Below, piece after piece: positions 2,714 through 16,817 of a stretch of DNA of 37,947 nucleotides. Position numbers and translations under genes: made by a program. How positions within the stretch are numbered: position 1 is the stretch's first letter; every line of letters starts with the position of its first letter. Source of the stretch: a virus; IMG/VR virus record IMGVR_UViG_3300021963_000308, positions 1 to 37,947 of that record; one strand, 5' to 3'. The notes beneath the pieces are model-generated. The model saw only the letters and a program-made list of their open reading frames with translations, searched no databases and had not been told where the DNA came from.

Positions 2714-4936
2714 TTACTGAGGCTGTTGTTGTTGCATTTGCTGACCTTGCATTTGTTCAGCCTGTTGAATCTGGTTTTGCATTGCTGATGCGGCTTGCTG
2801 ACCAACAGGAGTCACACCTGTGCGACCAATCTGCTTATTCTGTTGCTGGCTGACGCTCATCTGGAGGTTCTTGACATAATTATCAAGCAATGCCCTGAAG
2901 TGCTCGTCTCCTTGCATAGCCTGTTGAGCCTTCGGGTTCTTGCCCATAATATCTTGCAGGTACTGCAACTTAGTTTGGGCAGTCGGGTCGTTTTCGACGT
3001 AGTTAGCCTCATTACCAAGCATCATCAGACCAATATCAGACTGTATGTCCTTATAGAGCATCTGGGAAGCACTAGCCTGTTCAACGATGAGGTCTTTAGC
3101 CTTATCTGGGTCGATAGCCTCGATAGCCGCACGTACCAACTTGCTCTTGTCAATAACTCCAGCAGAATCGAGAGGCATAACGAACTGCATGATAGCCTTG
3201 AGTTTCTCCATCACAAAATCCGTGTCAATTTCACGCACGTCGTACTTAATCTGGAAATCGAACTGATTGCTGATAGCCGACATATTCTGCGGAATAGGCT
3301 TGTTGGTAATAGCCTCTATTTCAGCGGGGTCTAGATACTGCAAGCACAAGGCGAACAGCATATTGAAGGCTTCGCTCCAAACGTCTAGCCAGTTGTTGAC
3401 AATGTGTTGCTGTGTCAGTTGAGTTCTCTGCGGAGGAATGTTCGGGTGATAGATACCAAAGTAAGCCGCATGATTTTGCTCAACGACGCTAATTAAGTTG
3501 AAAGCAGTTTGCGTTTCGCTCTGCGGTGGAGGCATGAATCTGTAGTCGTCAGGTGACGTAACAGGCAGATGAATTCCCGGAGCAATCTTATTGATACCAC
3601 CAAGTCTTTTCTTAACAAGAATGGGTGGCATTGTTGTAAACGCCGTGCGGTCACGGATAGAGTCGTGCTGTGCCTTGATTTCAAACTGGTCGGTCATCGC
3701 CACTTCGGGAACGCCTCTGGACTCTTGGATAGGTCTGCGGATTCGCTCTCTGCGATAGATGACAAACGGGTACTTGTTGTGGGCGTAGCCAAGGAGTTCA
3801 TGGCTGGCGTAGATATCGCTACCTGCTCTTGGGCAGAAGATGGTGCAGTAGATGCCCTGTGTGCCGTCTTCGTTGATGAGGCGTGAGTAAGCGTACACGA
3901 CCTCAATCAAGTGCATATTGCGGTTAATCTGGTAGTTAATCAGCGTAGCCGCAGGGAGGATGTTCGGGTCGTGGAAGTTCGTGCGAAGTCCAGCGACGCT
4001 GACTGCTTGGTTGACAAACTCTTCGCTCCATCCATACTGTGCGGCTTGAGAACGAATCTCCATTTCCGTCATGAAGACTCTTCGGAAGATGACTCTTGCA
4101 TCTTGTATGTTGATGGTTTCTGGCGGGAACGAAATCTCGTCAAATGGTTTTAGAGCAACGACAGAAGGACAATTTTTTGAAATATACGATTCAGGAATTT
4201 CAGCCTTACCAGTTTCACGTAAGTCTTTGACTGCCTTTCTGACAGATTTTTCGTCAACGTCATTAAGGTATTGCTGAATCAAGTCACAGGCGTATTGTTC
4301 TTGCTCAGGATTCAGGATTGCATCAGCCAACTCAGCGAGAGCACTATTGCTTCCCTGTTGTCTTGCTTGCTGAGACAAAGCCGCAATTTCGTCTATTCTT
4401 ATCGTCTGGTGGCGAAGAGCAGTTTCCTGCTCCCAAATCACGTGCAATCCAGACCATCCGTACTGCTGTGTGTATTGAGCGAGGAGTTCGGCTTCTGAAT
4501 GCAGTTCTTGTCTCAATTTAGATTGCGTGAGCCAATCCATCAAGACATTAGCCGAGCCAGCAAAGTCGTAATCGTTATACTCAGTACCCTTGACCTTGAC
4601 CTTACAGCGGTCAAACGTGGTCATAAGCATAGCCACGATGTCGTTGATTGTTCGGTCAACTAGACGGCAACGGACATCAGAAGCCCCCTCAAACGGAAAG
4701 GCTGAGTCGCCTTCCATACGGCTTTCGCTGTGCTTTTTACCATCCGAAGTCTGACCAGCCCATCTGGAAAGACGAATGTCGTCGTTTTCCATGATGTTGG
4801 CGACGTTACCGCCGTTTTGCGTAGAGCGATTGTACTCTTGCCAAAGATATGGGATGTCGGGCGTAGATGAAGCATAAACCAACTTGTCTTGGTTCGGGTT
4901 ATACTTAGTGGAAATGTTGTTTTTAGTTATGCTCAT
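2714..4936 (-). CDS. Portal protein
   Basis: 740 residues, in the size range of large podoviral portals (the dodecameric ring through which DNA enters and leaves the capsid). The N-terminal region has the motif SRMEGDSAFPFEGASDVR followed by a long helical body. The C-terminus is extremely Gln-rich (a run of Q/M from about residue 695), as in many portal barrel tails. It lies between the terminase and the scaffold/capsid genes. The ATG at 4936 overlaps the end of the small HTH gene by 14 nt. The leader is A/T-rich with no Shine-Dalgarno sequence. The portal call rests on length, gene order and general resemblance rather than a single catalytic motif. Confidence 0.8.
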   Translation of the reverse strand: MSITKNNISTKYNPNQDKLVYASSTPDIPYLWQEYNRSTQNGGNVANIMENDDIRLSRWAGQTSDGKKHSESRMEGDSAFPFEGASDVRCRLVDRTINDIVAMLMTTFDRCKVKVKGTEYNDYDFAGSANVLMDWLTQSKLRQELHSEAELLAQYTQQYGWSGLHVIWEQETALRHQTIRIDEIAALSQQARQQGSNSALAELADAILNPEQEQYACDLIQQYLNDVDEKSVRKAVKDLRETGKAEIPESYISKNCPSVVALKPFDEISFPPETINIQDARVIFRRVFMTEMEIRSQAAQYGWSEEFVNQAVSVAGLRTNFHDPNILPAATLINYQINRNMHLIEVVYAYSRLINEDGTQGIYCTIFCPRAGSDIYASHELLGYAHNKYPFVIYRRERIRRPIQESRGVPEVAMTDQFEIKAQHDSIRDRTAFTTMPPILVKKRLGGINKIAPGIHLPVTSPDDYRFMPPPQSETQTAFNLISVVEQNHAAYFGIYHPNIPPQRTQLTQQHIVNNWLDVWSEAFNMLFALCLQYLDPAEIEAITNKPIPQNMSAISNQFDFQIKYDVREIDTDFVMEKLKAIMQFVMPLDSAGVIDKSKLVRAAIEAIDPDKAKDLIVEQASASQMLYKDIQSDIGLMMLGNEANYVENDPTAQTKLQYLQDIMGKNPKAQQAMQGDEHFRALLDNYVKNLQMSVSQQQNKQIGRTGVTPVGQQAASAMQNQIQQAEQMQGQQMQQQQPQ

Positions 4937-9005: not shown

Positions 9006-9081
9006 TGGTGGGTGCGGTTGGATTCGAACCAACGTTTCTTCCGTTATGAGCAGAGTGTTCTGACCTTTGAACTACACACCC
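9006..9081 (-). tRNA. tRNA-Met (CAT)
   Basis: Full cloverleaf on the minus strand: 7-bp acceptor GGGTGTG/CGCACCC, D-arm GTTC/GAAC, anticodon loop CTCATAA with CAT, T-arm GTTGG TTCGAAT CCAAC. Discriminator A is followed by an encoded CCA, the only one in the array. The C27-A43 pair in the anticodon stem is mismatched. Whether it is elongator Met or a lysidine-modified Ile2 tRNA cannot be told here. Confidence 0.9.
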
Positions 9082-9091
9082 CTGTAAAGAA

Positions 9092-9164
9092 TACGGCAAG
9101 CGGGGGTCGAACCCGCAACATCCAGTTTGGAAAACTGACACTCTGCCAATTGAGTTACTGCCGT
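9092..9164 (-). tRNA. tRNA-Gly (TCC)
   Basis: Acceptor ACGGCAG/TTGCCGT, anticodon stem TCAGT/ACTGG around loop TTTCCAA (anticodon TCC, reads GGA). T-arm GCGGG TTCGACC CCCGC. No encoded CCA. Confidence 0.93.
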
Positions 9165-9168
9165 AAAA

Positions 9169-9241
9169 TGGGACTAGCGGGACTTGAACCCACAACCAAC
9201 CGCTTAAAAGGCGGCTACTCTGACCATTGAGTTATAGTCCC
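9169..9241 (-). tRNA. tRNA-Lys (TTT)
   Basis: Acceptor GGGACTA/TAGTCCC, anticodon stem GCCGC/GCGGT with loop CTTTTAA (anticodon TTT, reads AAA/AAG). T-arm GTGGG TTCAAGT CCCGC. No encoded CCA. Confidence 0.93.
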
Positions 9242-9246
9242 GAAAG

Positions 9247-9317
9247 AACCCCGAAAGGGAGTCGAACCCCTGCTAAGAGAACCAAAATCTCCTGTGCTAC
9301 CATTACACCATCGGGGT
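9247..9317 (-). tRNA. tRNA-Gln (TTG)
   Basis: Acceptor ACCCCGA/TCGGGGT, anticodon stem GGAGA/TCTCT around TTTTGGT (anticodon TTG, reads CAA). T-arm AGGGG TTCGACT CCCTT. The discriminator would be T; no encoded CCA. Confidence 0.9.
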
Positions 9318-9322
9318 AAGTT

Positions 9323-9388
9323 AGACGCATGAAAGGAAATTTAACCTTTCTCCTCCGATGAACGGAATTCAACTTAAACTAATGCGTC
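9323..9388 (-). other. Aberrant tRNA-like element in the tRNA array
   Basis: It occupies one tRNA-sized slot between tRNA-Ser(GCT) and tRNA-Gln. Perfect 7-bp acceptor-like stem GACGCAT/ATGCGTC; a weak D-like arm (GTTT/GAAT, 5-nt loop). The anticodon-like hairpin is best with either a 5-nt loop (TTCCG/CGGAG) or a 7-nt loop GTTCATC that would show TCA. The T-like arm is a perfect 6-bp hairpin GAAAGG/CCTTTC with loop TTAAATTT. The canonical TTC-A/G-A-x-T loop and a normal variable region are missing. About 65 nt, no CCA. It could be a decayed tRNA, a minimal tRNA, or a tRNA mimic/processing substrate. Confidence 0.55.
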
Positions 9389-9394
9389 AAAGAG

Positions 9395-9479
9395 CGGAGA
9401 AGGCAGGATTTGAACCTGCGGTGGTTTTACCCACAGGTCTTTAGCAAAGACCCGCAATAAGCCTCTCTGCCACTTCTCC
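9395..9479 (-). tRNA. tRNA-Ser (GCT)
   Basis: Class II tRNA with long variable arm. Acceptor GGAGAAG/CTTCTCC, anticodon stem GGTCT/AGACC with loop TTGCTAA (anticodon GCT, reads AGC/AGT). T-arm GCAGG TTCAAAT CCTGC, discriminator G as expected for Ser. Confidence 0.93.
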
Positions 9480-9484
9480 TAGAA

Positions 9485-9556
9485 TCGACCCACTAGGAAT
9501 CGAACCTAGATGACTCGCTTAGAAGGCGAGTGTTCTATCCGTTGAACTATGGGTCG
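9485..9556 (-). tRNA. tRNA-Arg (TCT)
   Basis: Acceptor CGACCCA/TGGGTCG, anticodon stem CTCGC/GCGAG around CTTCTAA (anticodon TCT, reads AGA). T-arm CTAGG TTCGATT CCTAG. Confidence 0.93.
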
Positions 9557-9561
9557 TAAAG

Positions 9562-9646
9562 TAGAGGGTACAGGATTTGAACCTGTGGGAGTTTTACCTC
9601 CTTCTGTTTTCAAGACAGATGCAATAGACCACTCTGCCAACCCTCT
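9562..9646 (-). tRNA. tRNA-Ser (TGA)
   Basis: Class II tRNA with long variable arm. Acceptor AGAGGGT/ACCCTCT, anticodon stem TCTGT/ACAGA with loop CTTGAAA (anticodon TGA, reads TCA). T-arm ACAGG TTCAAAT CCTGT. The discriminator appears to be A, unusual for Ser. Confidence 0.9.
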
Positions 9647-9650
9647 AAAG

Positions 9651-9722
9651 AGCCTTGTGTCAGATTTGAACTGACGACCCTCTGTTTACAAAACAGATGC
9701 ACTACCGCTGTGCTAACAAGGC
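9651..9722 (-). tRNA. tRNA-Thr (TGT)
   Basis: First gene of the array in transcription order. Acceptor GCCTTGT/ACAAGGC, anticodon stem TCTGT/ACAGA with loop TTTGTAA (anticodon TGT, reads ACA). T-arm GTCAG TTCAAAT CTGAC. The discriminator would be T; no encoded CCA. Confidence 0.9.
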
Positions 9723-9769: not shown

Positions 9770-10330
9770 CATGTTTCGTAAACAATTGGTTCTTTTTAAC
9801 TCTAATTTAATTATTCGCTTGACATCACTTCCTCCTTCCCCCCCTATAACCCCCCTGTCTCGCTTCGCTCGACTGCCACACGTCCCCTTTTTGGGATAAA
9901 AAGAATCCCTAAGGTGACCCGTTATATCCCAAGGGCGGGGGAAAAACGGCGACCCCCTCCCCCCCCCTGTGGCTGGGCTGGGGTTTTGGGGGCTGGGCGT
10001 AGGGCTGGGACGGCTCACCTTTTTGGAGGGTAAAGGGTAGGGTGTGGGGACGGGTTTCAGGGGGTGTGATTGCTGGTGTCCTGCGTGGTCGCTGGAGCGG
10101 TTTGGCGGTAGGGTTGCTGGGGTAGTATTCGTTCCGAATCTGGCAGGTGCTGAGAGGCACGGGAGACGTTCCGAGTTCGTCAGTCAGGTGAGCGTCGGCA
10201 GGGTGTCAGGCTGACGTGCTGAGGGTGTGAACTGACTGGTGCTGGGCGTGGCACGTACCGGACACTTCGACGGCTTGCTGGACGAACTGAGCGTGAGCGT
10301 CAGGCCGTGAGCGTGTGAACCTGAGCAAAC
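9770..10330. other. GC-rich stretch without supported gene
   Basis: About 560 bp with long C- and G-runs and many GCTGA/TGAGCG words. The open frames here on the minus strand are Pro/Arg/Ser-rich and are what runs of C would give by chance; none has a believable start or family. It lies between the end of the cassette array and the tRNA promoter. It may contain decayed cassette material (for example CGACGGCTTG at about 10279 on the plus strand resembles the GACGGCTTA word found before some cassette starts). Apart from the G-run motif I see no defined element. Confidence 0.5.
9975..10009 (+). other. G-quadruplex-type motif
   Basis: Six G-runs of 3-5 within 35 nt on the plus strand (GGG, GGGG, GGGGG, GGG, GGG, GGG) separated by loops of 2-4 nt. 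This satisfies the usual four-run G4 rule with spare runs. The minus strand has matching C-runs just to the left (9951-9967). Role unknown; could pause replication or transcription. Confidence 0.5.
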
Positions 10331-10376: not shown

Positions 10377-10628
10377 TCAATCCCAGAGTTTCCAGAGGTT
10401 GCGTCCGAGAGCCTGAATGTGCTTCGGCTGACGACGCATCGCCTGTTGCGAGGCACGATAGTGTCGTGCTTCGGCTTGGCTGAGGGCGAGTGCTTCGGCT
10501 TCAGTCAGGGCGAGATGTTCAATCTGCTTTAAGACCAGCGGAGACGATTGAGGGTGATTCTGCACGGCAGGTGCAGGCTGTGCTACTGGCTGGGTAGCGG
10601 GTGAGAGAGCCTTGGGTTTGTGTGCCAC
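10377..10628 (-). CDS. Cassette gene 7: Ala/Gln-rich hypothetical protein
   Basis: 83 residues from GTG 10628. The start context CGTGGCACACAAACCC matches the first half of the leader shared by the other cassettes, but the hairpin part is absent. Pro/Ala/Gln-rich first 30 residues, then an amphipathic Ala/Glu helix (ALTEAEALALSQAEARHYRA) and a basic end with W (LGRNLWKLWD). It is the last cassette in transcription order. No family recognised; a small helical nucleic-acid- or protein-binding factor is possible. Confidence 0.5.
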   Translation of the reverse strand: MAHKPKALSPATQPVAQPAPAVQNHPQSSPLVLKQIEHLALTEAEALALSQAEARHYRASQQAMRRQPKHIQALGRNLWKLWD

Positions 10629-10667: not shown

Positions 10668-10692
10668 AAAAAAGCCCCCATTGCTGGGGGCT
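10668..10692 (-). terminator. Intrinsic terminator 2 of the cassette array
   Basis: Stem AGCCCCC/GGGGGCT with loop AGCAAT on the minus strand, then six U. 7 nt after the stop of the gene at 10699. Confidence 0.88.
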
Positions 10693-10698
10693 GGTTTC

Positions 10699-11169
10699 TT
10701 ACTCGTAATGTGGGCGGGTGTGGCTGACTGATGCGAACGGAACTGCCTCTGCGTACAGCACGTGCGTCGCACAGCGGGGAGATGCCGACCAATGTGCTGG
10801 AACTTTAGCGTCAGGGTTCGGACTCAGAACGTCAGGGTCACCTTGGAACTTCGCCCCGTGACTGTCTCGCATTTCCTGCTTATAGGCTTCCATCAATTTC
10901 CCGTCGTCAAGGTTCACGCATCCGATGTATTCGCACACGACGGGGGTAAGCCAGTCGTAGTACCAGCCTCCCTCTTCGTGCCCGCCGAACTCTCGGCTGA
11001 TGGTGTACAGGCATAGGAACGGGGTCAGGTGACTCGGCTCATTTGCGTACAGTTGGCAGAACTCAGTCAGGTTGCTCAGGTCGTGTTTCAGGTTGCTGAC
11101 AATCTCGTCAGCGGAGTGATTCTGGGGAGAGGCAGAATCGGAATTGCTCCCAGCGGGGTTGTGTTCCAC
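10699..11169 (-). CDS. Cassette gene 6: hypothetical 156-residue protein
   Basis: Starts at GTG 11169 with the shared leader peptide (M/V)EHNPAGSNSDSASPQN. After about 25 leader residues comes a unique body: helices with Cys/Leu (LTEFCQLYANEPSHL), then REFGGHEEGGWYYDWLTPVV around residues 58-77 and a Pro/His-rich end. A longer frame runs upstream through the terminator but has no start with support. GTG is the only start shared by the cassettes. Followed by its own terminator. I do not recognise the body; the G-G-H-E-E-G-G-W-Y-Y-D segment is distinctive enough for a profile search. Confidence 0.6.
   Translation of the reverse strand: MEHNPAGSNSDSASPQNHSADEIVSNLKHDLSNLTEFCQLYANEPSHLTPFLCLYTISREFGGHEEGGWYYDWLTPVVCEYIGCVNLDDGKLMEAYKQEMRDSHGAKFQGDPDVLSPNPDAKVPAHWSASPRCATHVLYAEAVPFASVSHTRPHYE
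11118..11169 (-). ncRNA. Cassette leader RNA structure, copy F
   Basis: From GTG 11169: purine box GGGAG at offset 18-22, then hairpin GATTCTG/CAGAATC (11118-11139) with loop CCTCTCCC. The last five loop bases (CTCCC) are complementary to the purine box. Same offsets as the other five copies. Confidence 0.7.
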
Positions 11170-11209
11170 GCCCTGAGCGTAAGCCGTCAGGCACAACAGG
11201 CACAACAAC

Positions 11210-11236
11210 AAAAAAGCCCCCCATTGCTGGGGGGCT
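11210..11236 (-). terminator. Intrinsic terminator 3 of the cassette array
   Basis: Stem AGCCCCCC/GGGGGGCT (one pair longer than its siblings), loop AGCAAT, then a U run. 6 nt after the stop of the gene at 11243. Confidence 0.88.
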
Positions 11237-11242
11237 GGTTCG

Positions 11243-11674
11243 TTAGTCGCAGTCTTCGTCTTCGTCTTCGTCGGGAAAGTCTTCCTCAAGACCCCCCAAG
11301 TCGTCGCTGTACTCTGCAATGCTCAGCCCGATGCAGAACGAAAGCAGTTCGTCGTAGCCTTCGATTTCCGTCCGAAGTTTTTCGGCTTCGGCTTCGCTGA
11401 ACCCGACTTCATTAGGAACGTTGCCTGACATTGCGAACTGCGTCAGGACGTTCAGTCGTTCGACGACGTTGCGGTCTTTTTTGCTCCAGCCTTTCTTGAG
11501 CGTTCCGAGTACGGCGAAGATGTTGCCGTCGACGTTCCAGTCGATTCGTGGCAGTTCGCCTTTGTACGTTCCGAGAATCCAGTTGCGGAACTTGAGGGTC
11601 ACAGGAAACACGTCCTGAGCGTTGACGCTGGGGGAGACAGCGTCGTTCTTTTCCCCGTGGTTGTTAGTTTCCAC
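11243..11674 (-). CDS. Cassette gene 5: acidic-tailed hypothetical protein
   Basis: 143 residues from GTG 11674 with the leader peptide (M/V)ETNNHGEKNDAVSPSV. The body contains PRIDWNVDGNIFAVLGTLKK (about residues 43-62) followed by a helix KKDRNVVERLNVLTQFAMSG, and ends in a highly acidic tail (FPDEDEDEDCD). The D-G-N-x-F-A-V-L-G segment recurs in small proteins of actinobacterial plasmids and phages, but I know no function. The acidic tail could mimic DNA. The leader and terminator are shared with neighbours while the body is not, so it behaves as a swappable insert. Confidence 0.6.
   Translation of the reverse strand: METNNHGEKNDAVSPSVNAQDVFPVTLKFRNWILGTYKGELPRIDWNVDGNIFAVLGTLKKGWSKKDRNVVERLNVLTQFAMSGNVPNEVGFSEAEAEKLRTEIEGYDELLSFCIGLSIAEYSDDLGGLEEDFPDEDEDEDCD
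11624..11674 (-). ncRNA. Cassette leader RNA structure, copy A
   Basis: From GTG 11674: purine box GGGGA (11652-11656), hairpin GACGCTG/CAGCGTC (11624-11644) with loop TCTCCCC. The loop end TCCCC pairs with the purine box. An extra small hairpin CGTGG/CCACG can form at the start codon. Confidence 0.7.
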
Positions 11675-11724
11675 GAACACAACGTAGTAAAAACCCTGAT
11701 ACGCCCGCAACAAAAAACCTAAAC

Positions 11725-11751
11725 AAAAAAACCCCCCATTGCTGGGGGGCT
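11725..11751 (-). terminator. Intrinsic terminator 4 of the cassette array
   Basis: Six G-C pairs, loop AGCAAT, followed by seven U. The flanking pair is lost compared with the other copies. 6 nt after the stop of the gene at 11758. Confidence 0.85.
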
Positions 11752-11757
11752 GGTTCG

Positions 11758-12180
11758 TTAGTTCTTAGACGTGTCCACGTTGCGGGGTTGCCTGACCAGA
11801 ATCCTGAACTGCAAAGTAGCCAGTTCTCGTTCGCCCGCACGTTCCAGAACTTCGGTCAGGCGTTCGCCAATGTCAAGGTGCTGGGCGTCCGTCAGTTTTT
11901 TTATGTCCTGCGAGGCGGGAAGATTGTCGTGCATAATGACGAAGACGTTTGAGTCGTCCTCGCTGACGTGGACGCCCTTCTCGTCTTCCACGAACCAGCC
12001 GACGTTCCGAACCTGAACCAACAGCGTGGGGTGAATGTCCATTTCACTTTTGTCGAACTCGCACAACCCGACGAACTTCGGGACGTCGAACAGTTTTAGC
12101 AATGCGTTGTCAAAGCCGACAACAGGCTGACGAAGGGGGGAGGCTTCGTCGTTCTTTCCCCCGATGCGGTTGTAGTCCAC
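11758..12180 (-). CDS. Cassette gene 4: hypothetical 140-residue protein
   Basis: GTG start at 12180 with a diverged leader peptide (M/V)DYNRIGGKNDEASPLR. The body is mixed alpha/beta: FDNALLKLFDVPKFVGLCEF, then beta segments PTLLVQVRNVGWFVEDEKG and SNVFVIMHDNLPAS, an amphipathic helix ERLTEVLERAGERELA, and a final strand TLQFRILVRQPR. Overall acidic. No family recognised. Its leader has a different hairpin sequence from its neighbours yet keeps the pairing, which is key evidence for the RNA structure. Confidence 0.6.
   Translation of the reverse strand: MDYNRIGGKNDEASPLRQPVVGFDNALLKLFDVPKFVGLCEFDKSEMDIHPTLLVQVRNVGWFVEDEKGVHVSEDDSNVFVIMHDNLPASQDIKKLTDAQHLDIGERLTEVLERAGERELATLQFRILVRQPRNVDTSKN
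12129..12180 (-). ncRNA. Cassette leader RNA structure, copy C
   Basis: From GTG 12180: purine box GGGGG at offset 18-22, hairpin GACGAAG/CTTCGTC (12129-12150), loop CCTCCCCC. The loop end CCCCC pairs with the purine box. The stem differs from copies A/B at two pairs, both compensated. Confidence 0.7.
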
Positions 12181-12219
12181 GAACAAAAACTAAAGCCGTC
12201 CTGAAAAAACAACAACAAC

Positions 12220-12244
12220 AAAAAAGCCCCCATCGCTGGGGGCT
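12220..12244 (-). terminator. Intrinsic terminator 5 of the cassette array
   Basis: Stem AGCCCCC/GGGGGCT, loop AGCGAT, then six U and a U/G-rich tail. 7 nt after the stop of the gene at 12252. Confidence 0.88.
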
Positions 12245-12251
12245 GTAGTTG

Positions 12252-12788
12252 TTATCCGTACACCACGTCGTCGGCTACGGCGATTTGCAGGAAGCAATCG
12301 TCGTCTACTCCGTCGAAGTCGAAGGCGTCTCGCAACTGTTCCGCTTCGTCGTTCAAGCCGAGTTCATAGCATTGGACAATCATAAGGAACTTGAAGATAC
12401 GTTCCTTAGGGTAAGGCTTGTGCTTCGGGTTCGCAACGTACGCCCTGAACGACTGGATTGCAGAGTCGCAGGTGATTTTCCTGTACTCGCTGTCGGGGTG
12501 TCCGTCAGCGTTCAGCCTGATGGTGACTGACCAGTCGGCACGGGCGGGTTTCCCGCTGGGCGTTTTCATCTCGCTGTGAGCAAAAGCAGCGTCAAGAAAG
12601 CCTTCGCCGTTGAACTTACCTTTAATCTGAAACCACGAAGGGTTGATGCCAGTTTCGAGAGCGGAGTTCAGTTCGCTTGCGACGAACAAGGCGAGTTTGA
12701 GTTTACGGGCGTTGCTGACAACATCGTCAGCCGATTGACTCTGGGAAGGGACAGAGTCGGGATTGCTTCCTGCGGGGTTGTGTTCCAC
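12252..12788 (-). CDS. Cassette gene 3: hypothetical 178-residue protein
   Basis: GTG start at 12788 with leader peptide (M/V)EHNPAGSNPDSVPSQS. A longer frame starting MGAFLF is an artefact of the terminator sequence. The body has an N-terminal helix (ARKLKLALFVASELNSALE), a beta section with WSVTIRLNADGHPDSEYRK (about residues 86-104), and a helical part YPKERIFKFLMIVQCYELG, ending in an acidic stretch (FDFDGVDDDCFLQIAVADD). The largest cassette insert; acidic overall. Family not recognised. Confidence 0.6.
   Translation of the reverse strand: MEHNPAGSNPDSVPSQSQSADDVVSNARKLKLALFVASELNSALETGINPSWFQIKGKFNGEGFLDAAFAHSEMKTPSGKPARADWSVTIRLNADGHPDSEYRKITCDSAIQSFRAYVANPKHKPYPKERIFKFLMIVQCYELGLNDEAEQLRDAFDFDGVDDDCFLQIAVADDVVYG
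12737..12788 (-). ncRNA. Cassette leader RNA structure, copy D
   Basis: From GTG 12788: purine box GGAAG at offset 18-22, hairpin GACTCTG/CAGAGTC (12737-12758), loop TCCCTTCC. The loop end CTTCC matches GGAAG, so two G-C pairs of the other copies are replaced by A-U on both sides. Confidence 0.72.
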
Positions 12789-12825
12789 GTATTCAACAAA
12801 CACGTACAGCAAAACGATTGCAAAC

Positions 12826-12850
12826 AAAAAAGCCCCCATTGCTGGGGGCT
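12826..12850 (-). terminator. Intrinsic terminator 6 of the cassette array
   Basis: Stem AGCCCCC/GGGGGCT, loop AGCAAT, six U. 7 nt after the stop of the gene at 12858. Confidence 0.88.
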
Positions 12851-12857
12851 GTGTTTG

Positions 12858-13238
12858 TCAGGTATAGGATTCGCCTTCCTCCAGTTCGTCCATCCTGTCT
12901 TCGTGCAGAACTTCGTGGTCAGGGCGTTCGTCGTTCGCTTCACCTAGCACGTTGTCTATGGATTCCATCACGACGTTTTCCCAATGCTCCATTAGTCCTT
13001 CTTGAATCTGTCCCTTAATCGTTTCCAGTTGCGGACGTGTCAGCGATTTCAGTCGGCTGTCTCCGTCCAATGCCATTAGCACATCTTCGTCAGTAATCAG
13101 GACGTACTCGATTCCGACGGATTTGCACGTGTAGTTAATGTGACCTAGTGATTCGTCCTGAGCGTTAATTAGACCATTAACAGGTTGATTCTGGGGAGAG
13201 ACAGAATCGGGTTTGCTCCCTGCGGGTTTGTGTTCCAC
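12858..13238 (-). CDS. Cassette gene 2: acidic hypothetical 126-residue protein
   Basis: GTG start at 13238 with leader peptide (M/V)EHKPAGSKPDSVSPQN. The body starts near INAQDESLGHINYTCKSV, continues IEYVLITDEDVLMALDGD and RLKSLTRPQLETIKGQIQEG, then a long acidic helical C-terminus (NVLGEANDERPDHEVL, DELEEGESYT). The upstream MGAFLF extension lies inside the previous terminator and is rejected. No family recognised. Net negative charge is shared with several other cassette products. Confidence 0.6.
   Translation of the reverse strand: MEHKPAGSKPDSVSPQNQPVNGLINAQDESLGHINYTCKSVGIEYVLITDEDVLMALDGDSRLKSLTRPQLETIKGQIQEGLMEHWENVVMESIDNVLGEANDERPDHEVLHEDRMDELEEGESYT
13187..13238 (-). ncRNA. Cassette leader RNA structure, copy E
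   Basis: From GTG 13238: purine box GGGAG at offset 18-22, hairpin GATTCTG/CAGAATC (13187-13208), loop TCTCTCCC. The loop end CTCCC pairs with the purine box. Confidence 0.7.
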
Positions 13239-13275
13239 GTCGAAAAAATAGAACTCGCCGAAAACATACGCAAAC

Positions 13276-13300
13276 AAAAAAGCCCCCATTGCTGGGGGCT
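13276..13300 (-). terminator. Intrinsic terminator 7 of the cassette array
   Basis: Stem AGCCCCC/GGGGGCT (13281-13300), loop AGCAAT, six U. 7 nt after the stop of the gene at 13308. Confidence 0.88.
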
Positions 13301-13307
13301 GTAGTTG

Positions 13308-13613
13308 TTATTCCTTCGCCTGTTTGAGCCTGAAGCCGTTCAGCGTCTTCGACGCAAGGGAGAACAGAACCTTTGCGTCTTTCTCGTTCACGTTGTGGTG
13401 ATGTGCCTGTTCGACGAACTTCATCGCTTCGCTGATGTTATCGGCGATTTTGTTCGCAGAGTACACCAGCCCGTTTCGCTTGGAACGAGTGCGGTTCAGT
13501 TTGCGAAAGAACGTTTGGGCGTATGCGGGTTGGGCGGTTGCCGACAATGCCGTCGACTGGCTGACGCTGGGGGAGACAGCGTCGGGTGATTCCCCGTGGT
13601 TGTTAGTTTCCAC
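13308..13613 (-). CDS. Cassette gene 1: basic hypothetical 101-residue protein
   Basis: GTG start at 13613 with leader peptide (M/V)ETNNHGESPDAVSPSV, followed by an Ala/Ser/Thr/Gln linker and a basic helical body: TFFRKLNRTRSKRNGLVY, then NKIADNISEAMKFVEQAHHH and VLFSLASKTLNGFRLKQAKE. No other in-frame start exists before the body. It is the first cassette in transcription order and the only clearly basic one of the leader-bearing set. Family not recognised. Confidence 0.6.
   Translation of the reverse strand: METNNHGESPDAVSPSVSQSTALSATAQPAYAQTFFRKLNRTRSKRNGLVYSANKIADNISEAMKFVEQAHHHNVNEKDAKVLFSLASKTLNGFRLKQAKE
13563..13613 (-). ncRNA. Cassette leader RNA structure, copy B
   Basis: From GTG 13613: purine box GGGGA, hairpin GACGCTG/CAGCGTC (13563-13583) with loop TCTCCCC whose end TCCCC pairs with the box. 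The first 22 nt are identical to copy A. Confidence 0.7.
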
Positions 13614-13649
13614 GTCCTGACTGTGTAAGCCGTCGGGGGCTGATGCAAC

Positions 13650-13677
13650 AAAAAAGAGAGGGGTCTTTCGACCCCTC
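13650..13677 (-). terminator. Intrinsic terminator 8 (different sequence)
   Basis: Stem AGGGGTC/GACCCCT closed by a GAAA (GNRA) tetraloop on the minus strand, then six U. 8 nt after the stop of the gene at 13686. Same position as the other terminators but unrelated in sequence; it marks the upstream border of the array. Confidence 0.88.
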
Positions 13678-13685
13678 CCTGTTGC

Positions 13686-16077: not shown

Positions 16078-16344
16078 TCAAGACTTTTTAGCACGTAGGG
16101 CGACGGAACGTGCGATATGTACGTCGTTGTTCAGGACTGCCAGAAGGTCGAGTTCCATCGTGTCAAGAACTTTCCTATCTTTTATCAGTCCAGCCTGTCC
16201 GATAGCCTCTTCGACGACTGCGGATTCGAACACGGCTTCGTCTCCCCCTTCGTCCTTCTCGATTGTGTAATGAACCTTTGCATACACGACGTAGTCCCTG
16301 CCGTTATGCTTTATCTTGAAGTTGTTCAGGACGTGCGTGTGCAT
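16078..16344 (-). CDS. Hypothetical 88-residue protein
   Basis: ATG 16344, overlapping the upstream stop as TGATG. A strand pair KIKHNGRDYVVYAKVHYTIE is followed by an acidic segment (EKDEGGDEAVFESAVVEEAI) and a helical end. The TGA stop is embedded in TTGACG. Family unknown; it is translationally coupled to the HTH/small-terminase candidate. Confidence 0.6.
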   Translation of the reverse strand: MHTHVLNNFKIKHNGRDYVVYAKVHYTIEKDEGGDEAVFESAVVEEAIGQAGLIKDRKVLDTMELDLLAVLNNDVHIARSVALRAKKS

Positions 16345-16817
16345 CACTTCTTCTCCTCGACGATGTCGATTACTTCAGGGGGCTTCTCGCCCTTGAGAAT
16401 CTTATTTATATCTTCGTGCGATATCCTCAGGCGATGCTCGACGACAGTCGTGGGTGCGTCTTGCAAGGCTAAGACCTTGTCGGTCATAATGGCGATGGCT
16501 ACGGGGAGTTGCCCAGCGGGGATGTTTTCAATCTCCTCCAAGAGCCTATTGCTACCCTTGGAGACTATCTGCGACAGGAGCGAAGCGGTTTGCTTCTTCC
16601 ACGTCCCCAAGTTGAACTTACCAGCGTCTTCCTCGTCCTTCTTTATCGCAATGACGGAGGGCTTGGAGACTCCAGTTTGCCGTACTATCTCCTTTGTGCC
16701 AGCCCCGTCGTGAATCATGTCAACTACTTTCTTGCGTTTTGTTTTCTCCACGTTCTTTCCTGTGCTGTTTATCGACGGGTTCGTCGAGAGTCTCTCTGGG
16801 TTCGATTCATATTCCAT
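16344..16817 (-). CDS. HTH protein, candidate small terminase subunit
   Basis: 157 residues. The N-terminal 25 are disordered. Residues about 30-60 form a homeodomain-like helix-turn-helix (VVDMIHDGAGTKEIVRQTG then VSKPSVIAIKKDEE). After this comes WKKQTASLLSQIVSKGSNRL and a helical segment IENIPAGQLPVAIAIMTDKV, a pattern I associate with phage HTH proteins often annotated as terminase small subunit. C-terminus helical and charged, EDINKILKGEKPPEVI. If correct, it is far from terL, on the same strand. It could equally be a regulator, as it is the first minus gene beside the divergent control region. Confidence 0.55.
   Translation of the reverse strand: MEYESNPERLSTNPSINSTGKNVEKTKRKKVVDMIHDGAGTKEIVRQTGVSKPSVIAIKKDEEDAGKFNLGTWKKQTASLLSQIVSKGSNRLLEEIENIPAGQLPVAIAIMTDKVLALQDAPTTVVEHRLRISHEDINKILKGEKPPEVIDIVEEKK

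Follow-up and report, generated by a model that had tools for sequence, protein, structure and literature searches.

Leaderless genes of mycobacteria carry an RTG triplet (GTG or ATG, with G and A interchangeable) at the transcription start and a −10 hexamer instead of a Shine-Dalgarno sequence upstream of it; RTG alone suffices in these genes, and no downstream element is enriched (PMC4633059). For leaderless mRNAs, it is far from settled how the ribosome selects a start codon at the very 5' end, and a search of the literature retrieved no downstream structural element for such mRNAs. Here, we describe a structured element that bears on this question in a 37,947-base phage record of IMG/VR (IMGVR_UViG_3300021963_000308; hereafter the window, in its entire length). 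The element combines a five-base box with a hairpin whose loop is complementary to it, and recurs at a fixed distance from the start codons of six gene cassettes on the minus strand. We refer to the helix between the box and the 3' part of the loop as S1, and to the hairpin stem as S2. As in mycobacteria, RTG would coincide with the transcription start, the starts being predicted here and mapped there.

Downstream initiator hairpins of eukaryotes and viruses (Kozak; dengue; alphavirus; PMC2001202, PMC5850377) likewise set a stable structure in the first codons at a set distance from the start codon. They are placed from ~12–18, up to ~27–30 nucleotides into the coding region, as is the phage element, the first paired base of which is nucleotide 19 (box offset 18) in 24 of the 28 leaders collected in this work. 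In eukaryotes, weak or non-AUG starts benefit from a hairpin located ~17 nucleotides inside the coding region (PMC2001202), an effect on initiation that we infer for the phage element. In contrast, the initiator hairpins serve scanning ribosomes as single hairpins, with neither a pseudoknot nor a leaderless mRNA. The operator of T4/RB69 gene 32 (PMC535899) ties a phage mRNA pseudoknot to translation control, but it lies 5' of the ribosome-binding site of one gene and is bound by a known protein, whereas the structure described here lies in the coding region. SAS/ESAS of cluster K mycobacteriophages (PMC3203893) also recur in many copies at the translation starts of non-structural genes, with inverted repeats in about half of them and no assigned function. 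These elements are located upstream of the start codon, with a conserved 13-mer, 17-bp repeats and no pseudoknot described, whereas the leaders studied here lie downstream of it; the 13-mer (GGGATAGGAGCCC) has no match in the window with up to two mismatches. Finally, classical H-type pseudoknots share with the phage element two crossing helices of ~5 and 6–7 bp, which are conserved in the leaders and sterically compatible in a simple geometric model. Instead of a loop 2 of 0–1 nucleotides and a loop 3 spanning stem 1, all leaders have a loop 2 of 2–3 nucleotides and a loop 3 of zero, so that the strand is continuous from S1-3' to S2-3', resembling the 3' stacking of anticodon loops.

Two covarying helices in the leaders

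The initial annotation had proposed six copies with the box at offset 18–22 and a 7-bp stem at offset 30, all of which are indeed present. The loop of these copies has 7 or 8 nucleotides, the last five loop bases being the exact complement of the box, and the four stem and four box/loop variants are entirely Watson-Crick. The positions from 11118 to 13563 that it had assigned to the leaders are, however, the 3' ends of the stems on the minus strand, the GTG codons being at 11169, 11674, 12180, 12788, 13238, and 13613. A scan of the window for this layout at GTGGA starts with full 7-bp stem pairing found only these six, which argues against a chance occurrence. In an alignment of the six copies with the leader of the related record L012, 97.6% of the pair cells are paired, as compared to 82% in shuffles and 38–62% when the partners are slid by one to three columns. 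A 5' hairpin (GTGG/CCAC) predicted in some copies was discarded as a part of the element because its partner is absent from others. Upon inspection only, no slippery heptamer was apparent before the box, which speaks against programmed frameshifting.

Searches of IMG/VR yielded 28 distinct leaders from five lineages, that is, that of the window and four further phage lineages, plus near-identical contigs. Their 336 pair cells comprise 319 Watson-Crick pairs, two G-U pairs and 15 unpaired cells; a G-U pair in a stem was seen in G042. The S2 stem takes about fifteen sequences, each with a matching partner (e.g., GACGCTG, GATTCTG, GACGAAG, GATTCGA, GAAAGCG, CAGGAAG, TGAGCG, CGAACG, GACAGCA, and TCCAGCG), and seven S1 box types are fully matched by the loop (GGGGA, GGGGG, GGGAG, GGAAG, GCGGG, GAGGG, and GCAGA). 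Inside the fold, there is little invariant sequence besides the first S1 G-C pair. In an ungapped alignment of 14 leaders with seven-base loops, 98.2% of the cells are paired (79% in shuffles), and each of the seven S2 pairs shows changes in both partners. Even the otherwise near-identical G034:4610 and G036:7684 differ by a compensatory stem change that is synonymous.

Covariation was scored by a home-made test in the manner of R-scape (G statistic with average product correction, against a null that re-places the parsimony changes of each column on the tree). S2 pairs rank 1–6 among ~1770 column pairs, five of them with E<0.05, the E-values being approximate since the tree derives from the short leaders themselves. 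The best single S1 pair ranks 9 (E 0.33); S1 pairs are individually weak because few S1 changes occurred. At the level of the whole helix, S1 nonetheless exceeds the phylogenetic null, with 135 paired cells as compared to a maximum of 124 in 3000 simulations (p<0.0004; compensatory cells, p=0.007), and S2 falls far outside it. The conserved, covarying structure claimed from the six copies thus holds across the 28 leaders. These natural variants, with their evolved compensatory changes, provide a compact set for reporter and purified-translation assays. The striking scarcity of G-U pairs, unusual for an RNA structure, may in part reflect a need for mechanical strength, but leaves room for a constraint at the DNA level.

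What is conserved is the nucleic-acid fold rather than the encoded peptide. One hairpin, GAGCGTCTCCCCCGCTC, encodes ERLPRS in G034:6112 and G034:4610 but SVSPAL in G034:5621, because the hairpin is shifted by one base while the start codon and the downstream frame are kept. Furthermore, in close pairs of cassettes, the leader accumulates seven changes in synonymous and nine in nonsynonymous codons, as compared to 35 and 19, respectively, in the body, which indicates no stronger protein constraint on the leader than on the body. On these grounds, an N-terminal protein tag was rejected.

The initial annotation left open whether the helices form a pseudoknot or a switch, and suggested that the latter may be sterically easier for want of a linker. 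Covariation alone does not separate the two. In every one of the 28 leaders, the 3' strands of S1 and S2 are directly adjacent, and loop length varies only between 7 and 8 nucleotides. We then applied a simple A-form phosphate model, in which S1 stacks on the S2 3' strand as anticodon loops stack, and the strand sense is taken from the known deep-groove crossing of H-type loop 1. In this model, loop 2 (2–3 nucleotides) spans 12.7 Å and loop 1 (5–10 nucleotides) ~28–34 Å, and all 22 modelled leaders close both helices with at most 6.3 Å per backbone step. The missing linker is therefore no obstacle, contrary to that argument, and coexistence of both helices as a pseudoknot is possible according to the model. 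Fixed spacing also favors a pseudoknot over a switch.

Predicted leaderless starts and a possible role in initiation

That the structure stands at the cassette starts had been recognized from the beginning; what had escaped notice, and gives the main functional clue, is that this region lies within the coding sequence, probably at the very 5' end of a leaderless mRNA. Promoter-like motifs with +1 at the start codon, terminators after the cassettes and orthologous arrays in other phages all go beyond the initial annotation. Alignment of 22 upstream sequences on the start codon revealed T at −7 in all of them, A at −11 in 19, C or T at both −12 and −1 in all, and TTG at −35 to −33 in 14, with a spacer of ~17 nucleotides. 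When the added lineages are included, YANNNT (Y, C or T) starts at −12 in 21 of 29 sequences; the next best offset scores 3 and the best of 500 shuffles 7. This is the spacing of sigma-70 −10 and −35 hexamers for a transcript that begins at the first base of the start codon, so that RTG would probably be the first three bases of the mRNA, rendering the cassette mRNAs leaderless. A −10-like hexamer takes the place of a Shine-Dalgarno sequence just upstream of the start, less clearly so in G039 and G042. Shine-Dalgarno motifs are rare; most window genes lack them and none is usable at the window cassettes, which suggests that the host may be one that makes little use of them.

All leaders start with RTG, in which G and A are interchangeable, as also in mycobacterial leaderless genes (PMC4633059). 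Frame 0 is open in all 27 leaders tested, 23 of which have a stop in frame 2. Together, the open frame and the universal RTG indicate that the leader is very probably translated. Nucleotides 5–18 are 45% A, 43% C and 3% G (88% A/C), as compared to 66% A+C in other window genes, and leaderless translation is stimulated by CA repeats close to the start (PMC9031893). Each of the six window cassettes presents itself in the same order, i.e., terminator, promoter-like motif, RTG, 14 A/C-rich bases and the predicted pseudoknot from nucleotide 19. According to toeprints, a ribosome whose P site holds the start codon has its leading edge near nucleotides 16 to 18.

The best explanation of these features, to which we attach an evenly balanced probability, is a cis-acting element for leaderless initiation. 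Each cassette would be its own transcription unit, where the terminator of the preceding gene is followed at once by a sigma-70-like promoter. The transcript would open with the start codon itself (GTG; in two related phages, mostly ATG), and the first 18 nucleotides, that is, the start codon and the A/C-rich, nearly G-free stretch, would fill the mRNA channel of the ribosome. A ribosome positioned on the start codon by its P site would end at about nucleotide 19, and from there an H-type-like pseudoknot would form, with the box (nucleotides 19–23) pairing to the 3' part of the hairpin loop and the stem of 5–7 bp stacking on the box-loop helix. By blocking forward movement, this knot may keep the ribosome at the 5'-terminal start codon for as long as initiation takes, and would then be unwound during the first codons. 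The outcome would be strong or selective translation of a gene set in a phage mostly without Shine-Dalgarno sites. A conserved knot at the edge of the start-bound ribosome suggests a new way to control protein synthesis. More tentatively, and with some doubt prevailing, these leaders could represent a new class of bacterial initiation signal, in which a pseudoknot outside the ribosome footprint pins ribosomes on a leaderless 5'-terminal start codon, a prokaryotic counterpart of the downstream hairpins of eukaryotic viruses, used as a module shared by a phage gene array.

Several observations weigh against such a role. Leaderless GTG genes of mycobacteria need no downstream element (PMC4633059), which makes a conserved downstream structure unexpected and counts against its necessity. 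Likewise, the window cassette starting at 10628 and that at L012:569 keep the same promoter and GTG without hairpin or pseudoknot, so neither promoter nor start is invariably accompanied by the element, which is also missing from two cassettes of G035/G037 with an ATG start. GUG is a poor leaderless start in E. coli, and initiation is usually inhibited when stable structure surrounds the start codon. Objections have been raised to a purely mechanical model of the alphavirus hairpin at +27 (PMC5850377). A few copies have only three or four S1 pairs (3 bp in G037:37726 and 4 bp in three copies of G039). A strict promoter scan lists none of the predicted cassette promoters because their hexamers deviate from the consensus (TATAAT); G039 and G042, the ATG lineages, have shifted or poor hexamers. 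We also discarded the idea that the knot insulates nucleotides 1–18 from folding, the unpaired fraction being 0.58 in the free stretch, 0.61 with the knot and 0.58 with a shuffled element.

The strongest competing explanation is a translational operator, in which a phage or host protein would bind the pseudoknot, read its shape more than its sequence, and switch the gene set together, as T4 gp32 does; we consider this unlikely but worth serious attention, and sequence alone cannot decide between it and a cis-acting initiation element. The pseudoknot of gp32 sets a precedent (PMC535899), and one shape precedes 2–6 unrelated genes per phage, yet not every gene of the array. In addition, leaders are more alike within a phage (0.66) than non-orthologous leaders between phages (0.59), as one shared factor would predict. 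However, the near lack of invariant sequence within the fold speaks against a bound protein, and no candidate for the regulator emerged. Nor does simple occlusion account for the layout, given that the structure does not include the start codon.

Mutually exclusive helices, with the choice between box-loop helix and hairpin stem made by the ribosome, temperature or a ligand, seem improbable. Their predicted energies are similar (−5 to −10 kcal/mol for the S2 hairpin and −5 to −9 kcal/mol for the S1 duplex), and the predicted fold of the copy at 11674 takes the box helix, but a switch needs neither the invariable abutment nor the constant loop length, and both helices are compatible in the A-form model. 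Decidedly improbable is an element at the level of transcription, whereby nascent RNA from +19 to +52 would act on RNA polymerase by pausing or antitermination, as does the antitermination RNA put of HK022. The fixed distance from the predicted +1 and the intrinsic terminators after each gene would suit such an activity; nevertheless, antitermination has no evident use where each cassette has its own promoter and terminator, and the fold lies within a conserved open frame and tracks RTG starts. Scarcely credible is a DNA-level element (recombination site or operator) or a conserved N-terminal peptide tag, because, for all the paucity of G-U pairs, the modular look of the cassettes and the resemblance of the leader peptides, the arms change freely with pairing kept, unlike those of a protein-bound palindrome, a G-U pair does occur in one stem, gene order is conserved between lineages rather than shuffled, and both the two-frame hairpin and the codon changes speak against a peptide.

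Distribution of the element in uncultured phages

The first search pattern, built from the positions invariant in the first seven leaders, recovered the element from additional viral contigs. Covariance-model searches of whole records then found six copies each in the near-identical G034 and G036, five in G035, four in G037, and one in the fragment G038. The related L012 (terminase 94% identical to that of the window) ends inside the orthologue of the cassette starting at 11169. A search with the neighbor gene at 16344–16817 retrieved 29 loci, five of which were known carriers. Among the other 24, a strict scan was empty, and the covariance model added G042 (two copies) and G039 (three copies), most of whose start codons are ATG, leaving 22 negative. 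A looser final scan of all viral contigs returned known members only. Most capsid-based relatives lack the array, and other capsid or neighbor-gene relatives had no convincing copy, though many of these records are fragments. The pattern match L193:3968 was set aside as terminator-like. In 85,000 bacterial and archaeal genomes, the sequence pattern had 12 matches, all without the stem and thus attributable to chance. As far as searched, the array occurs in no cultured phage, and no close cultured relative was found. The element thus appears confined to one clade of uncultured phages (window/L087/L012, G034/G036/G038, G035/G037, G039, and G042).

The initial annotation knew of no named RNA family with this layout, in agreement with Rfam 15, no family of which matched at the gathering threshold; the window yielded only tRNAs at this threshold, and the array region of G036 only sub-threshold matches at a relaxed one. 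The element is therefore a new RNA family absent from Rfam.

Cassette genes and their surroundings

Cassette order is conserved between the window and G034, with bodies 42–57% identical, and leader stem sequences change freely; for instance, the stem of the cassette at 11674 is GACGCTG and that of its 57% identical orthologue AAGAGCG. At each cassette end, a GC-rich terminator with a T-run lies just upstream of the next −35 hexamer, so that terminator and promoter are fused (Table 1). Searches of Pfam, PHROGs, NCBIfam, and PADLOC assigned no convincing function to the cassette proteins, and the predicted structures of two of them have a mean pLDDT of 49 and 57. The element marks a set of phage gene products without assigned function that are probably expressed together.

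Table 1. Positions of leaders, predicted promoters, terminators and genes of the cassette array in the window
Feature	Position	Strand	Details
Leader copy 1	13563..13613	-	GTG 13613-13611; A/C-rich slot; box GGGGA 13595-13591; S2 GACGCTG 13583-13577 / CAGCGTC 13569-13563; loop TCTCCCC 13576-13570
Leader copy 2	13187..13238	-	GTG 13238; box GGGAG 13220-13216; S2 GATTCTG/CAGAATC 13208-13202 / 13193-13187; loop TCTCTCCC
Leader copy 3	12737..12788	-	GTG 12788; box GGAAG 12770-12766; S2 GACTCTG/CAGAGTC 12758-12752 / 12743-12737; loop TCCCTTCC
Leader copy 4	12129..12180	-	GTG 12180; box GGGGG 12162-12158; S2 GACGAAG/CTTCGTC 12150-12144 / 12135-12129; loop CCTCCCCC
Leader copy 5	11624..11674	-	GTG 11674; box GGGGA 11656-11652; S2 GACGCTG/CAGCGTC 11644-11638 / 11630-11624; loop TCTCCCC
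Leader copy 6	11118..11169	-	GTG 11169; box GGGAG 11151-11147; S2 GATTCTG/CAGAATC 11139-11133 / 11124-11118; loop CCTCTCCC
Predicted promoter, copy 1	13620..13648	-	-35 TTGCAT, 17 nucleotides, -10 CACAGT ending at -7
Predicted promoter, copy 2	13245..13273	-	TTGCGT-17-TATTTT
Predicted promoter, copy 3	12795..12823	-	TTGCAA-17-TTTGTT (weak -10)
Predicted promoter, copy 4	12187..12215	-	TTGTTG-17-TAGTTT
Predicted promoter, copy 5	11681..11710	-	TTGCGG-18-TACGTT
Predicted promoter, copy 6	11176..11205	-	TTGTGC-18-TACGCT
Intrinsic terminator directly upstream of copy 1 promoter	13655..13680	-	
Intrinsic terminator after gene 1	13281..13300	-	GCAA tetraloop, T-run
Intrinsic terminator after gene 2	12831..12850	-	
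Intrinsic terminator after gene 3	12225..12244	-	GCGA tetraloop
Intrinsic terminator after gene 4	11730..11751	-	
Intrinsic terminator after gene 5	11215..11236	-	
Intrinsic terminator after gene 6	10673..10692	-	
Cassette gene 1	13308..13613	-	101 residues; function unassigned; orthologue in G034
Cassette gene 2	12858..13238	-	126 residues; acidic; function unassigned
Cassette gene 3	12252..12788	-	178 residues; function unassigned; 48% to G034 orthologue over 153 residues
Cassette gene 4	11758..12180	-	140 residues; function unassigned; 43% to G034 orthologue over 98 residues
Cassette gene 5	11243..11674	-	143 residues; acidic tail; function unassigned; 57% to G034 orthologue
Cassette gene 6	10699..11169	-	156 residues; EEGGWYYDW...PHYE family; 75% to L012 orthologue
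Seventh cassette	10377..10628	-	Same promoter type (TAAACT at -12..-7); GTG at predicted +1; without pseudoknot

The ATG of the terminator loop (MGAFLF...), to which open-reading-frame callers may lengthen genes 2 and 3 (12858–13289 and 12252–12839, minus strand), is probably not a genuine start. EEGGWYYDW and a C-terminal P-H/V-Y-E mark a wider family that includes the product of cassette 6 and has a weak relative in Bacillus phage P59; the relatives at L153:7677–8243 and L154:7833–8258 start differently and show no such leader. Elsewhere, the window encodes an SU10-type capsid protein, a terminase and a very large protein of 2635 residues, as well as a cluster of eight tRNA genes at 9006–9722 on the minus strand (Met, Gly, Lys, Gln, Ser, Arg, Ser, and Thr). 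Between this cluster and the cassette array runs a C-rich, G-poor non-coding stretch (window ~9800–10330) that is alike in kind in several lineages (L012 ~1000–1250, G034 ~3700–4100, and G035 1–280).

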